A DNA stretch of 49,152 bases from Lachnospira sp. (lineage in GTDB: Bacteria > Bacillota > Clostridia > Lachnospirales > Lachnospiraceae): assembly GCA_028693195.1 (NCBI GenBank), contig JAQUVV010000002.1:1-49152 (forward strand). Direction: 5' to 3'. The notes under the pieces were generated by a model that made no database searches, was not told the DNA's origin, and saw only the letters and a program-made list of their open reading frames with translations. Position numbers and translations under genes: made by a program. How positions within the stretch are numbered: position 1 is the stretch's first letter; each line of letters starts with the position of its first letter. Of the stretch, positions 2,639 to 49,152 are shown piece after piece.

Positions 2639-5029
2639 ATGAGTACAGAAACAACATGTATTGAAAAGCAGCCATTGACCAATGAATATCTTGAGAAGAT
2701 GAATGCCTACTGGAGAGCAGCGAATTATTTATCAGCGGCACAGTTATATCTTTTGGATAATCCACTGCTTCGTGAGCCATTGACTCTAGACCAGATCAAG
2801 AAGAAAATTGTAGGCCACTGGGGAACAGTACCAGGCCAGAACTTTGTATACTGCCATATGAACAGGGCAATCAAGAAGTATGATCTGGATATGATTCTGA
2901 TTTCAGGCCCAGGACATGGTGGAAACTTCTTTGTATCCAATTCTTATCTTGAAGGTACATATAGTGAAGTATATCCGAACATCAGCCAGGATATGGATGG
3001 AATGAAGAAGCTCTGCAAGCAGTTCTCATTCCCAGGAGGAATCTCAAGCCACGTAGCACCAGAGACACCGGGATCTATTAACGAAGGTGGAGAACTTGGT
3101 TATTCTATTGCACATGCATTTGGTTCCGTATTTGATAACCCAGATTTGATTACGACCTGTATTGTAGGTGATGGAGAAGCTGAGACTGGCCCATTGGCAA
3201 CAGCTTGGCACTCTAATAAATTCTTGAATCCAGTAACAGACGGAGCAGTCCTCCCAATCCTGCACCTGAACGGATATAAGATCAGTAATCCTACAGTATT
3301 TTCCCGTATTTCCCATGACGAGATAGAGAGCTTCATCCATGGATGTGGATGGAAGCCATATTTCGTCGAGGGAGATGATCCAATGACCATGCATAAGAAG
3401 ATGGCTGAGACAATGGATACCATTATCGAAGAAATCAAAGCAATCCAGAAGGATGCCAGAGAAAATGGAAACACAGAAAGACCATTCTGGCCAATGATCG
3501 TACTTCGCACACCTAAGGGCTGGACAGGACCTAAGGTTGTCGATGGCAAGGAAATCGAAGGAACATTTAGAGCACATCAGGTTCCGATCATGATGGATCA
3601 GCCACATCACAAGGATATGTTAGAGGAGTGGTTAAGAAGCTACAAGCCAGAAGAACTGTTCGATGAGAATGGACAGCTGATTCCTGAATTGAAAGCACTT
3701 GTCCCAGAGGGAGATCACAGAATCAGTGCAAATCCTCATGCTAATGGCGGAAAGCTCTTAAGAGACTTAAGACTTCCTGATTTCAAGGACTATGCAGTAG
3801 AAGTCGCACAGCCAGGAGCAAAGGAAGGTCAAGATATGATCGAACTTGGCGGCTTCATTAGAGATATATTCAAATTAAATAAAGAGACTAGAAACTTCAG
3901 AATCTTTGGACCGGATGAGACCATGTCAAACAGACTTGGAAAAGTCTTTGAGGAAACAAACAGAGACTGGAACAATGCATTGAAAGATAATGATGAATTC
4001 TTAAGTAACGATGGATGTGTCATGGATTCTATGCTGTCCGAGCATATGTGTGAAGGCTGGTTAGAGGGATATCTGCTCACAGGTCGTCATGGATTCTTTG
4101 CAAGCTACGAAGCATTTATCAGAATCGTAGATTCTATGGCAGCACAGCATGCTAAGTGGTTGAAGGTATGCTCTCAGTTACCATGGAGACAGTCCATTTC
4201 ATCCCTGAACCTGATCCTTTCCTCTAACGTATGGCAGCAGGATCATAATGGATTTACTCATCAGGACCCAGGCTTCTTAGATCATATCGCCAATAAGAAG
4301 GCAGATGTGGTAAGAATGTATCTTCCACCAGACACCAACTGTCTGTTATCATGCTTTGACCACTGTATCAGAAGTAAGGACTATGTCAATGTGCTGGTAA
4401 CATCTAAGCATCCAAGACCTCAGTGGCTGACCATGGAACAGGCTGTTAAGCACTGTACACAGGGCGTCGGTATCTGGGAGTGGGCAAGCAATGACCAGGG
4501 ACAGGAACCAGATGTAGTTCTTGTTGGCTGTGGTGAAACACCGACTATGGAGGCACTTGCAGCAGTGACGATCTTAAGAGACAACATGCCAGAATTAAAG
4601 ATTCGTTTCATCAATGTAGTGGATTTATTCAAGCTTCAGTCCAGTGCACAGCATCCACATGGTCTGTCAGATACAGATTACGATGCACTGTTTACAAAGG
4701 ATAAGCCAATCATCTTTGCATTCCATGGCTACCCAACACTGATTCATGAGCTGACATACTTTAGACATAACAGAAATCTGCAGGTATTCGGATATCAGGA
4801 AGAAGGAACAATTACCACACCTTTCGATATGCGAGTTCAGAACGAGATTGACCGTTACCATCTGGTAGAAGCAGCAATCAATGCACTTCCACAGCTTGGA
4901 AATAAGGGAGCATATCTCTTACAGAAGATGAGAGATACATTAGTTGCCCATAAGCAACATATTGATGAGTATGGTATGGATCTTCCAGAAGTACGTGACT
5001 GGAAGTGGCATACACCAGAGAATAAGTAG
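2639..5029 (+). CDS. xfp: Xylulose-5-phosphate/fructose-6-phosphate phosphoketolase
   Basis: Phosphoketolase splits xylulose-5-P (or fructose-6-P) with phosphate into acetyl-phosphate and glyceraldehyde-3-P (or erythrose-4-P), using thiamine diphosphate in the cytosol. The 796-aa length is exactly that of the family. Visible motifs include GPGHGG near residue 90, the [15 protein letters not shown] segment, and the ThDP motif GDGEAETGP followed by HLNGYKI. The start has AAGAAAAGAGG just upstream. It is monocistronic or nearly so: its own promoter and palindrome precede it and a strong terminator follows. Its neighbours supply xylulose-5-P (isomerase and xylulokinase). Very confident. Confidence 0.97.
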
Positions 5030-45796: not shown

Positions 45797-47602
45797 ATGG
45801 CAGAACAGAAAATTGAGAACTTGTTAAATGTCAGCTTAGAAGTAAATGAAGAAGAGCGAGAGAAATCTCCCAGTTTGAGCACAGGATTTAATGAAGTGCA
45901 AAGAACATGGGAGATTATTGTGCGCTTTCAGGGAAATATAGAAGAAATACTTGTGGATTATCCAGATATTCAGGTACGTACATTGAGCAATAACTATGCA
46001 ATTATTATTACGCCACAGCAGTATGTGGAATCTATTGCCAACGAGACTTATATTGAATTTGTGGAGAAGCCGAAGAGATTGTTCTTTGAATTGTCAGCAG
46101 GGAAGTCGGCAAGCTGTGTTAATCAGGTGCAGCAGGGAGTGAATAATCCATATCAGCTTTTTGGTGCAGGGGTGATTGTGGCAGTGATTGATACAGGAAT
46201 CAATCTGTCCAGCCAGCAGTTCCGGAATGCAGACGGAACGACGAGAATATTGAATATATGGGATCAGGAGACAGGAATTGAGTGGAATCAGGAGCAGATT
46301 AATCAATTCTTGCGGGGAGATATTCAGGAATCAGAGGGAAAAACATATTCAAGCCATAGAAAATCAAAGGTAAATGTAGAGCCTAGATCAGATTTGAGGG
46401 GAATGGTGAAAGAGCAGCAGATTCAAGGGAGTGACGTCCCAGGACGTGACTTACTTGGACATGGAACAGATGTTGCACAGATAGCCTGTGGTCGTGATGG
46501 GGTTGCCAGTCAAGCGGATTTGATCATTGTAAAGATGGGGATTGGAACCACAGATGGGTTCCCCAGAACGACGCAGCTCATGGAAGCGTTGGATTATGTG
46601 GTTCAAAAAGGAATTGAATATGGAAAACCGGTAGCAGTCAATATCAGCTTTGGAAATAATTATGGAGACCACACAGGAAGAAGTCTTTTAGAGACATATA
46701 TGAATGAGATTTCCAATCTTTGGAAATGTTCAATCTGTGTGGGAACTGGAAATGAAGGCTTAGGAGCAACACATAATGGAGGGGTAGTTTCAGGAACAGG
46801 GGAAACAGAAATCGAATTTGTGATTTCTGAATATGAAGCCTCATTCAATATGCAGATTTGGAAAAATTTCTGGGATGAGTTTGATGTGGAAATTATCGCA
46901 CCTGGAGAACGGAATCTGGGAAGAATCGGTCGTTATAATACAGTGAATCGAGTTAATGTGCTTGGTACAACAGTGTTGACATACAGAGGACTTCCGTCTC
47001 CATATTCATCACGGCAGGAAATTTATATTGATATGATACCGGAAGGTGCGAATGGATTCATTCTTTCAGGGGGGTGGAAAATTCGTTTTATTCCAATTCG
47101 CATTGTGGAAGGACGATATGACTGCTGGATGCCGTCTATTGGTTCTTTGAATATTGGAACAGGATTTTTACGTCCAGATGGAAGCCTTAGTATTACAATT
47201 CCGTCTACAGCTCAAAATGTGATTTCTGTTGGAGCCTACAATGGAAGAACCGGAACACCAGCGGCATTTTCGGGTCGAGGATATGTATCACAGATTGGTG
47301 GCTATGTCATGTCAAAGCCGGAACTGGTTGCGCCGGGAGTTGGAGTGCAGCTTCGAGTAGGAAAGAGTGTATCAGGGACGTCCTATGCAACACCGTTTGT
47401 TACTGGCGCAGCGGCATTGTTGATGGAATGGGGGATTGTGAAAGGTAATGATCCGTTTCTTTATGGAGAGAAAATGAAAGCGTGTCTAATAAAGGGGGCA
47501 CGTCCGCTGGGGTTATCCAGCCCACTTGCAGTAGGAAGCCAGCAAGGAATACAGGTGCCTAATTCAGTGACTGGGGATTGTGTTAAATTAGTGTTAGGTT
47601 AG
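45797..47602 (+). CDS. S8 family subtilisin-like protease (Csp-like)
   Basis: A 601-aa subtilase of the clostridial Csp-like group. The catalytic triad looks complete: Asp132 in AVIDTGIN, His222 in LLGHGTDVAQIA and Ser529 in SGTSYATPFVTG. A long insertion lies between the His and Ser parts (about 340-470), as in CspB/CspC-type proteases. There is no clear signal peptide; a ~100-residue N-terminal prodomain-like part is present. The role could be cell surface or spore-related, but no sporulation genes are next to it. Its last codons form one arm of a 17-bp inverted repeat. Confidence 0.9.
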   Translation: MAEQKIENLLNVSLEVNEEEREKSPSLSTGFNEVQRTWEIIVRFQGNIEEILVDYPDIQVRTLSNNYAIIITPQQYVESIANETYIEFVEKPKRLFFELSAGKSASCVNQVQQGVNNPYQLFGAGVIVAVIDTGINLSSQQFRNADGTTRILNIWDQETGIEWNQEQINQFLRGDIQESEGKTYSSHRKSKVNVEPRSDLRGMVKEQQIQGSDVPGRDLLGHGTDVAQIACGRDGVASQADLIIVKMGIGTTDGFPRTTQLMEALDYVVQKGIEYGKPVAVNISFGNNYGDHTGRSLLETYMNEISNLWKCSICVGTGNEGLGATHNGGVVSGTGETEIEFVISEYEASFNMQIWKNFWDEFDVEIIAPGERNLGRIGRYNTVNRVNVLGTTVLTYRGLPSPYSSRQEIYIDMIPEGANGFILSGGWKIRFIPIRIVEGRYDCWMPSIGSLNIGTGFLRPDGSLSITIPSTAQNVISVGAYNGRTGTPAAFSGRGYVSQIGGYVMSKPELVAPGVGVQLRVGKSVSGTSYATPFVTGAAALLMEWGIVKGNDPFLYGEKMKACLIKGARPLGLSSPLAVGSQQGIQVPNSVTGDCVKLVLG

Positions 47603-47740
47603 TAAGGAGCCAGTAATTACAAGGGTTCCAGCTGATTTAGTCCAAGAAGAAATACTGTGAAATACAGTAGATTTTGACAAGGACGGGCCCGTTTTAAATC
47701 AAAATTGAAGAAAAATAACTTAGTAACACTAATTTAACAC
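47580..47740. repeat. 17-bp inverted repeat spanning the protease end and intergenic DNA
   Basis: Arms 47580-47596 (inside the last codons of the S8 gene) and 47724-47740 are perfect reverse complements, 127 bp apart. Between them lie a GC palindrome ACGGGCCCGT (47683-47692) and a TTGACA. This could be a transcript-level switch or an end of the element to the right. Confidence 0.7.
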
Positions 47741-47792
47741 CAAGGGTATTTTGGGTGAATTGGTTTATTAAGTACACAGAAATCATTAATTT

Positions 47793-47862
47793 AGTAGGAC
47801 TAAATTAGCTCGTGGTAATTCGTTGCCACTATCTATAAGCTAATCTAGTCCTACTTTTTTTA
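47793..47862 (+). terminator. Strong hairpin terminator at the edge of the mobile-type region
   Basis: Arms 47793-47810 and 47838-47855 pair at 17 of 18 positions, with GTGG/CCAC inside the loop, followed by seven Ts. It lies well after the S8 stop (190 bp), so it may be an attenuator for the downstream genes. Confidence 0.8.
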
Positions 47863-47877
47863 CGCGAGTAGCGATGA

Positions 47878-47939
47878 AAATGCCATGCTTGCATGAGCAT
47901 TTGAGGAGCACCGCGATAACTTGAGAAGCATTCTCAAGT
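47878..47939. repeat. Hairpin cluster before the mobile-type genes
   Basis: AAATGC (47878-47883) pairs with GCATTT (47897-47902) around an inner ATGC/GCAT stem; ACTTGAGAA (47919-47927) pairs with TTCTCAAGT (47931-47939). No gene was seen in the 47603-47963 gap, which holds only these repeats and hairpins. Confidence 0.6.
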
Positions 47940-47963
47940 GGTATAAGAAAAAGGAGGATTGGA

Positions 47964-48125
47964 ATGGCAATTAAGATAGTAGAGCTAATTGTAGTCATTG
48001 CAGTAGCAATTTGTTATGTAGGCATACTTGCTATATGCAGAGCATCAGGAGATGCGGAAAGGAGATATGAAGAATTAGCTGCAAAGAAGTTCTCTCCAAC
48101 TGGGGGTGAAGTCAATGCAGTTTGA
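47964..48125 (+). CDS. Small membrane peptide, 53 aa (DUF3789-like)
   Basis: A 53-aa protein with one membrane helix (IKIVELIVVIAVAICYVGILAICRA) and a short hydrophilic tail SGDAERRYEEL. The layout resembles DUF3789 peptides of integrative elements, a tentative match. AAAGGAGG precedes the ATG with good spacing. Its end overlaps the start of the next gene by 11 bp. Confidence 0.65.
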   Translation: MAIKIVELIVVIAVAICYVGILAICRASGDAERRYEELAAKKFSPTGGEVNAV

Positions 48126-48576
48126 TTTTAAAGGCTTACGAATAGAGCATGAAAAAGATTTAGTAAGGCTCGTGAAAGAAATCAATTCGGATATAGAATT
48201 TGAGAATATTACAAGAAGTAAAAAAGATAAGGAAGAACTGCTGAATCTGGATTATGTCATAAAGCGATATAAAAAGATTCGGTATCGTATCGAGAAAAAG
48301 GAATTTAGAGAAAAGAACGATTGCAAATATTGTTATTACTATGAAAACAAAATGTGCAAAGCGGTTCGAAAATGTCCTATTGAGGAAGAGGAAAAGAGAT
48401 TTACTCGAAGAAAACCTCATAAGCCTCGTTGTCCAAAAGATAAGGAGGGAAATTGTCCATATGGGAATGATGTGGGAACATGTTTTGGTTTCTGTTGGAA
48501 AGAGATTCTGGCAGAACATAACAAAGCTAAGAACAAACGAGAACAGAAAAGGAAGGAGCAACGATATGACGAGTAA
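48115..48576 (+). CDS. Hypothetical Cys-rich basic protein
   Basis: A 153-aa protein, strongly charged, with helical N-terminal half. The C-terminal half carries 10 or more Cys in patterns such as CKYCYYYENKMCK, RCPKDKEGNCPY and TCFGFCWK, suggesting metal binding. I do not recognise a family. GGGGGTGA lies ahead of the ATG at 48115. It overlaps the downstream actin-like gene by 11 bp, so the three genes form one operon. Confidence 0.65.
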   Translation: MQFDFKGLRIEHEKDLVRLVKEINSDIEFENITRSKKDKEELLNLDYVIKRYKKIRYRIEKKEFREKNDCKYCYYYENKMCKAVRKCPIEEEEKRFTRRKPHKPRCPKDKEGNCPYGNDVGTCFGFCWKEILAEHNKAKNKREQKRKEQRYDE

Positions 48577-49152
48577 ACTTGAAATAATCGGAATTGATCA
48601 TGGCTGGTCAATGATGAAAGGAACAAATGATGTTTTTGTAACTGGTGTAAAAGAAATAACAACTACACCTGCAATGTATGCAGATACACTTGAATACCAG
48701 GGCAGATATTACAGAGTGGGAACTACAAGGCAGGAAGTAAAGAATACCAAGACAGAGGATGACACATTTTATCTGTTAACACTGGCGGCAGTTGCAAAGG
48801 CTTTGAAACGAAGAGGACTGACAGAAGCAAAGGTGTTTCTTGCAGTAGGACTTCCATTAACAAGATTTGGAGCAGAGAAAGCAGATTTCATTAAGTATCT
48901 AACGGCAAATAAGTATGTGGAGTTTGCATATGAACAGATTACGTATTGTATTGAAGTAGTGAGTGCCGCAGTATTTCCACAGTGCTATGCAGCGGTGGCA
49001 GACAGAATTACAGAGTTTTCTAAGAAGACAGTTATTGTGGATATCGGAAGCTGGACCATTGACATTATGCCAGTGATTAACAAAGCACCGGATGAATCAA
49101 ACTGTATTACAATTCCAAAAGGTTTGATTACATGTATGCGTTCTGTAAATGA
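48566..49152 (+). CDS. ParM/StbA-like actin-family protein (partial, runs off the window)
   Basis: The frame starts at 48566 and is still open at the end of the window (195 codons). The start LEIIGIDHGWSMMKGTN is the phosphate-1 region and VIVDIGSWTIDIMPV (near residue 152) is the phosphate-2 region of ParM/StbA-type actin ATPases. These move plasmids or are carried by integrative elements. The Gly-rich loop is VDIGSWT instead of VDIGGGT. The gene overlaps the Cys-rich ORF by 11 bp, and GGAAGGAG precedes the ATG. Confidence 0.85.
   Translation, partial: MTSKLEIIGIDHGWSMMKGTNDVFVTGVKEITTTPAMYADTLEYQGRYYRVGTTRQEVKNTKTEDDTFYLLTLAAVAKALKRRGLTEAKVFLAVGLPLTRFGAEKADFIKYLTANKYVEFAYEQITYCIEVVSAAVFPQCYAAVADRITEFSKKTVIVDIGSWTIDIMPVINKAPDESNCITIPKGLITCMRSVN

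Follow-up and report, generated by a model that had tools for sequence, protein, structure and literature searches.

The 49,152-nt stretch of Lachnospira sp. DNA analyzed here (GCA_028693195.1, forward strand; hereafter the window) is the whole of contig C140, one contig of the fragmented genome G000. We found that its last part, from 47575 to the contig end at 49152, is probably the left end of an integrative and conjugative element (ICE) inserted by serine recombinases at a GG core dinucleotide in an S8 protease gene, with a promoter split between the two element ends and a leader RNA that depends on the transcription start site. The leader appears to be a previously undescribed RNA switch, with the genes off while the element is integrated and on once it is circular. 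On balance, we also lean towards a broader reading, in which a new leader-RNA family at Lachnospiraceae-type ICE ends senses integration state by its own transcription start, and pairing of a 5' arm, S0, with either arm S1 or arm S0' gives the same logic in different branches. All evidence is computational, and the features of the window are collected in Table 1.

The target gene encodes a CspBA-like protease, whose 5' part matches Pfam CspB_prodomain and Peptidase_S8 and NCBIfam CspBA (E = 1.5e-99). In the window, its open reading frame (ORF) ends with ...PNSVTGDCVKLVLG, and the ortholog in G204, a genome of the same genus with the same upstream neighbor, ends with PNSVTGYGALCVADSLPG. A search of the window's own genome, with the final recombinase gene product of a related element as query, led us to contig C194, which carries the missing C-terminus GWGALCVRDSLPV after position 4331, behind tandem large serine recombinase genes with Pfam Resolvase and Recombinase domains. 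About 160 nt past the last of these genes, the sequence reads TTGACACAAGCGGGCTGGGGGGCACTTTGTGTGAGGGATAGTCTGCCCGTGTGA. Joining the window and C194 at the GG core yields an intact ORF (...PNSVT-GWGALCVRDSLPV and a stop codon). Because this join restores the protease ORF, sequence comparison places the element from 47575 onwards and its right end at C194:4329; the final codons of the truncated ORF are accordingly read as element sequence, not as original protease. Since the contig stops at 49152, the element continues off it.

These results bear out the original prediction that an integrative element starts at the end of the S8 protease, and with the tandem recombinases of C194 the element has site-specific recombinases of its own. 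The prediction also put one arm of an inverted repeat in the last codons of the protease, which is right for its position in the ORF, but those codons belong to the element and the gene is truncated. A matching attachment (att) repeat was recovered only as the 2-bp GG core and not as a long repeat, as is expected of serine recombinases. The opposite possibility, that relatives have the same gene order between housekeeping genes, was not seen, as G204 has an intact protease followed by a LytTR regulator. The LytTR gene, which we used as a locator, has no ortholog in the window's own genome. Overall, an empty site could be restored to an intact ORF at the GG core in five genomes, namely G000 (window plus C194), G131, G350, G196, and G266, and the element of G350 is complete, with 28,597 bp between GG cores. 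A group I or group II intron was considered for the insertion in conserved motifs and rejected, since Rfam gave no match and the recombinases at the other end explain the insertion.

We then compared the element ends. Left ends carry a −10 box, most often TATAAT. At all eight right ends, located by the point where the host gene resumes (G196, G266, G258 twice, G261, G131, G350, and G000), TTGACA lies at most about 14 bp from the crossover. For the window element it is at C194:4318-4323, which in the circle is 17 bp from the left-end −10, and the expected circle junction is TTGACACAAGCGGGGGATTGTGTTAAATT. The attP sequences of the five elements with both ends known read TTGACA-N17 and then TATAAT (G350, G131), TATTAT (G196, G266), or TAAATT (G000). 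In the integrated state, no −35 enrichment was found upstream of the −10 (mean match 2.57 vs 2.42 in shuffled sequence). With the −35 in the right end and the −10 in the left end, circularization is thus predicted to create a promoter. We infer that this promoter is active, has a start site behind the junction, and is present only in the excised circle.

The leader itself (47575-47975, 401 nt) folds at z = −6.9, with 0 of 100 shuffles as good. The predicted 17-bp perfect inverted repeat is real, its arms S0 and S0' being 127 nt apart, and the S0:S0' helix scores 38, whereas the best of 15 left-arm shuffles reached 19. The strong T-tailed hairpin (47793-47810 with 47838-47855) has 17 of 18 positions paired, followed by T7; with a loop of 27 nt, it escaped a terminator scanner. 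The two further hairpins also held up, at 47919-47927/47931-47939 and about 47883-47900. In addition, we found an alternative pairing absent from that earlier list, between 47630-47643 and 47797-47810, and this third pairing would make the leader a switch, more than a set of hairpins. In this arrangement, S1 (GCTGATTTAGTCC) can pair with S2 (GGACTAAATTAGC), and S2 can also pair with S3, which is followed by a U-run. All three strands are kept in 38 aligned leaders, where S1:S2 pairing is conserved in all and S2:S3 pairing in nearly all, and some S2:S3 pairs show covarying changes on both sides. The suggestion that the leader looks like an attenuator is thereby supported and refined to a conserved, start-site-dependent attenuator in which S1:S2 competes with S2:S3. 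We considered whether the 17-bp repeat marks the ends of a miniature element of about 165 bp and rejected this, as the conserved unit extends to the terminator in other genera.

S0 lies at the extreme element end and overlaps the −10 box, and its partner divides the leaders into two classes. In class I, S0 pairs with S1, mostly with a U-run behind it (AATAGGACTAAATTA:TGATTTAGTCCTATT, AATAAGGAC:GTCCTTATT, GGGACAAGTTAG:CTAACTTGTCCC, and TAAGACC:GGTCTTA). In class II, to which the window belongs, A's follow S1, and the partner of S0 is S0', located between S1 and S2; examples besides the 17-bp repeat of the window are TAGTGTCAAGTT:AACTTGACACTA, TAATGTCAGGTT:AATCTGACATTA, and GTTATACTAATGT:GCATTAGTATGAC. 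Between S1 and S0' or S2, we also noticed a self-complementary 8-mer. Of 49 distinct leaders, 45 have it, whereas shuffles predict about 5%. It occurs in nine sequence variants, which include CAGCGCTG, CAGGCCTG, CGGCGCCG, TGAGCTCA, and CGGGCCCG as well as wobble forms. A loop-loop (kissing) contact between two RNA copies via the 8-mer is possible.

Wherever it could be assigned among about 95 left-end loci, with ORFs sought in that orientation only, the 5' half of the target gene is on the leader side, so that host transcription would point into the element. The intrinsic terminator formed by S2:S3 and the U-run is near the end that faces host transcription. We propose the following mechanism. 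In the excised circle, the right-end −35 and the left-end −10 would meet to form a promoter there only. RNA made from it would start past most of S0, so that S1 could pair with S2 as an antiterminator, allowing expression of the partition operon (Cys-rich protein, actin, and ParR) and of the transfer genes downstream. In the integrated state, RNA reading through from the host gene would include S0. In class I, S0 would then pair directly with S1, and this helix and a U-run would make up a first terminator. In class II, as in the window, S0 would instead pair with S0', which lies between S1 and S2. Either pairing would hinder S1:S2, leaving S2 to pair with S3 and transcription to stop. Because the terminator-locking arm overlaps the −10 and only the circle completes the promoter, the host read-through RNA would lock itself off, and the circle RNA could not. 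We infer that transcription also terminates in this way in living cells and that the circle is the only state in which expression is wanted.

We folded the leader RNAs up to S2, either as read-through RNA from 30 nt upstream of the left end or as self-started RNA from 7 nt after the −10. Before S3 is made, the mean probability of S1:S2 over 72 leaders was 0.31 for read-through RNA, 0.93 for self-started RNA, and 0.76 with the 5' extension shuffled; it rose by more than 0.2 in 53 leaders when self-started and fell in none. For the 40 distinct leaders, the values were 0.37 and 0.92, and 0.74 when only the element's own end was shuffled (up in 26, down in none; Wilcoxon p = 9e-9 and 1e-4).

Several points weigh against the proposed switch. 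The folding was at equilibrium and without pseudoknots, its start site was an assumption, and the controls were single-base shuffles, few in number. No switch is predicted in 14 of the 40 distinct leaders, and at equilibrium several class II leaders favor the terminator in both RNAs. The window leader shows no switch in the pre-S3 test (S1:S2 at 0.99 in read-through and 1.00 in self-started RNA). Its S0:S0' probability is 0.94 in the read-through RNA before S2 is made, and only the full-length fold shows a switch, with a terminator probability of 0.45 in read-through vs 0.00 in self-started RNA. The window's −10 is weak, matching at 4 of 6 positions. Further, C140 and C194 were linked by logic and not through the assembly; among the contigs of G000, no other N-terminal protease half lacking that end was seen. 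The weak −10, together with an S1 that ends in AA, could mean that the copy in the window has decayed and lost the function of its switch, and the split over contigs of a fragmented genome hides its intactness. However, the 17-bp S0:S0' helix is perfect, neither the terminator nor the reading frames are damaged, and on C194 the middle and the last of the recombinase genes are open, so that decay seems quite unlikely to us.

Two other readings concern the leader family as a whole. The competition between S1:S2 and S2:S3 is a classic attenuator layout, and a conserved hairpin before S1 and the self-complementary 8-mer suggest a further regulator, so the leader might be an insulating terminator with an antiterminator that responds not to the start site but to a ligand, a protein, or an antisense RNA, as in a riboswitch or in copy-number attenuation. 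Rfam, however, gave no match for the leader at E ≤ 5, and the S0 pairing is kept despite changing sequence and overlaps the −10 box, neither of which a ligand switch needs. We regard such control in place of start-site sensing as unlikely, although the two are compatible and can both be true. Alternatively, since the S0/S0' repeat and the 8-mer lie at or near the att site and an 8-bp palindrome suits a dimeric protein, they might be DNA-level sites for the recombinases or an excisionase, with the RNA folding incidental. Yet variants that change one side of the 8-mer give G-U and never A-C in the transcribed strand (10 vs 0 leaders among the fully self-complementary ones), S0 has S1 as its partner in class I leaders, with a U-run behind the helix, and the read-through folding differs from that of shuffled controls. 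This makes a role as DNA sites very unlikely, and we retain start-site sensing by the leader RNA as the preferred reading.

We also looked for the leader elsewhere. A DNA search found it in other genera, where it likewise begins within S8 protease genes but at different motifs. An actin-alignment scan of named genomes gave 80 loci, with the leader upstream of actin in 37. A covariance model of the leader 5' core contained no consensus pair, because the leader pairing is long-range, and served as a sequence profile only. Among 397 genomes of the family, this profile placed the leader in 99 at E ≤ 0.001, with about 60 strong matches and the weaker ones uncertain, and in a class-wide sample outside the family it gave only 4 weak cases. 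The S8 protease is interrupted at three motifs, D[TS]G, MEWG, and PNPxxG. Other interrupted genes encode a tyrosine recombinase, flavodoxin, Fic, aldo/keto reductase, spoVT, an XRE regulator, a SNF2-like helicase, SecA, an ABC ATPase, enolase, and homoserine succinyltransferase. Insertions in the same protease gene in G205 (L093, C34; twice) and G219 (L094, C179) were set aside as serine-recombinase elements of another kind. They lie at the D[TS]G and MEWG motifs, and carry tandem large serine recombinases with histidine kinase, response regulator, or HD-domain cargo. S8 proteases are an insertion hotspot. A special case among att repeats is L101 (G122:C135:70930-75830), a 4.9-kb element at spoVT that has the leader together with actin and ParR genes; the 5' region of spoVT is repeated on both of its sides as a perfect 75-bp direct repeat.

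Parts of this logic are known from other systems. For Tn4451/Tn4453, Lyras and Rood reportedly described in 2000 a circle-junction promoter for TnpX. In both cases, a promoter would arise when the two ends of a serine-recombinase element meet, here predicted from a −35/−10 split with N17 in five elements. In contrast to Tn4451/Tn4453, the junction promoter here would read into the partition operon via an attenuator and not drive the recombinase, as the recombinase genes are at the right end, pointing towards the junction, and the left end starts the partition operon. IS10 and IS50 are protected from read-through activation, as read-through RNA folds into an inhibitory structure that blocks translation initiation. 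There, too, an end sequence that is present in read-through RNA and absent from self-started RNA folds inhibitorily, but translation initiation is blocked, whereas transcription termination is predicted here. As in ParM/ParR plasmid partition, there is an actin-fold ATPase gene, which in relatives is followed by a small, putatively ParR-like gene, except that here they sit in an ICE behind a leader and curated ParM models match weakly.

The closest published logic is that of Tn916, which has an insulating terminator, T1, near one end and, acting once the element has excised, an antiterminator RNA, canT (Wirachman and Grossman 2024, PMC11658703). In both, an ICE end carries a terminator that insulates from host read-through; it is bypassed only after excision in Tn916, and the same is predicted here. 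They differ in that canT is separate and comes to lie upstream of the transfer genes on excision, whereas here one leader holds both terminator and antiterminator, and transcription of the 5' arm S0, or its absence, is the predicted signal. A single leader that reads its own start site would thus suffice for the present element. ICEKp1 also changes expression at an element end with excision and has a terminator-containing 5' untranslated region, but its state-dependent promoter is near the 3' end and drives int, with another recombinase in another host (PMC13023037). How an ICE inside a transcribed host gene silences its transfer and partition genes and activates them in the circle is understood in only a few cases. 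If our reading is true, one short RNA reads the integration state without a protein, in an element family across gut Firmicutes; this would be a testable, portable start-site-dependent switch and would explain how such elements live in the reading frames of expressed genes. A literature search, whose coverage of subscription journals was small, found no description of this leader.

Table 1. Features at the left end of the element, in window coordinates
Feature	Position	Strand	Basis
5' part of interrupted CspBA-like S8 protease (target gene), to ...PNSVTG	45797..47574	+	Pfam, NCBIfam, G204 ortholog
GG core dinucleotide, last bases of protease part	47573-47574	+	
Left part of integrative element, runs past contig end	47575..49152	+	Boundary and restored target gene
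Arm S0, predicted to be complete only in RNA reading in from host gene	47580..47596	+	Pairing search
−10-like hexamer TAAATT (TATAAT in most relatives)	47584..47589	+	Left-end comparison
Arm S1, antiterminator 5' strand	47631..47645	+	
8-mer CGGGCCCG, conserved and self-complementary, located between S1 and S0' and predicted to sit in an apical hairpin loop	47684..47691	+	
Arm S0', perfect complement of S0	47724..47740	+	Pairing search
Arm S2, pairs with S1 (antiterminator) or S3 (terminator)	47795..47809	+	
Arm S3, 3' strand of intrinsic terminator	47839..47853	+	
C and U7 run of terminator	47854..47861	+	
Repeat B (GCGAGTAGCGA...GCACCGCGATAAC), outside core leader	47862..47935	+	Also found behind terminators of other ICEs and at chromosomal loci
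Small membrane peptide gene, 53 aa	47964..48125	+	ORF
Cys-rich protein gene, 153 aa, without family match	48115..48576	+	Related elements have Cys-rich genes in this position
ParM-like actin gene, incomplete at contig end	48566..49150	+	Pfam ALP_N, NCBIfam ParM (weak), actin alignment

Behind the leader, the three genes for the small membrane peptide, the Cys-rich protein, and the actin overlap, as the original prediction had it. The actin-like gene matches Pfam ALP_N, an actin-like fold domain, above the cut-off (E = 1.8e-11). Its use as a mark of a plasmid or ICE module agrees with the related left ends, which lead elements with a relaxase, a TraG/VirD4 coupling protein, a VirB4-like ATPase, and ParM/ParR; the first three are present in the related elements of G408 and G458, and the window's own copy ends with the contig. 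The small ParR-like gene that follows the actin in relatives is without a Pfam match. At L283 (G387:C1, about 1635750-1634060), the leader fronts genes that from sequence resemble ParA/ParB, where others have ParM/ParR. A MazF/PemK-like gene lies upstream of the right-end recombinase genes in G196 and G266 (L230:4610-4975 and L231:8074-8439, respectively).

Repeat B follows the pattern GCGAGYARCGA...TGCTTGCA...GCCGCGATAAC, is not in Rfam, and could be a regulatory RNA or an antitermination site. It occurs in up to three copies per genome, usually directly after an intrinsic terminator, in other ICEs and before chromosomal genes; the loci besides the window are L009, L015, L016, L019-L023, L027, L031, and L032.

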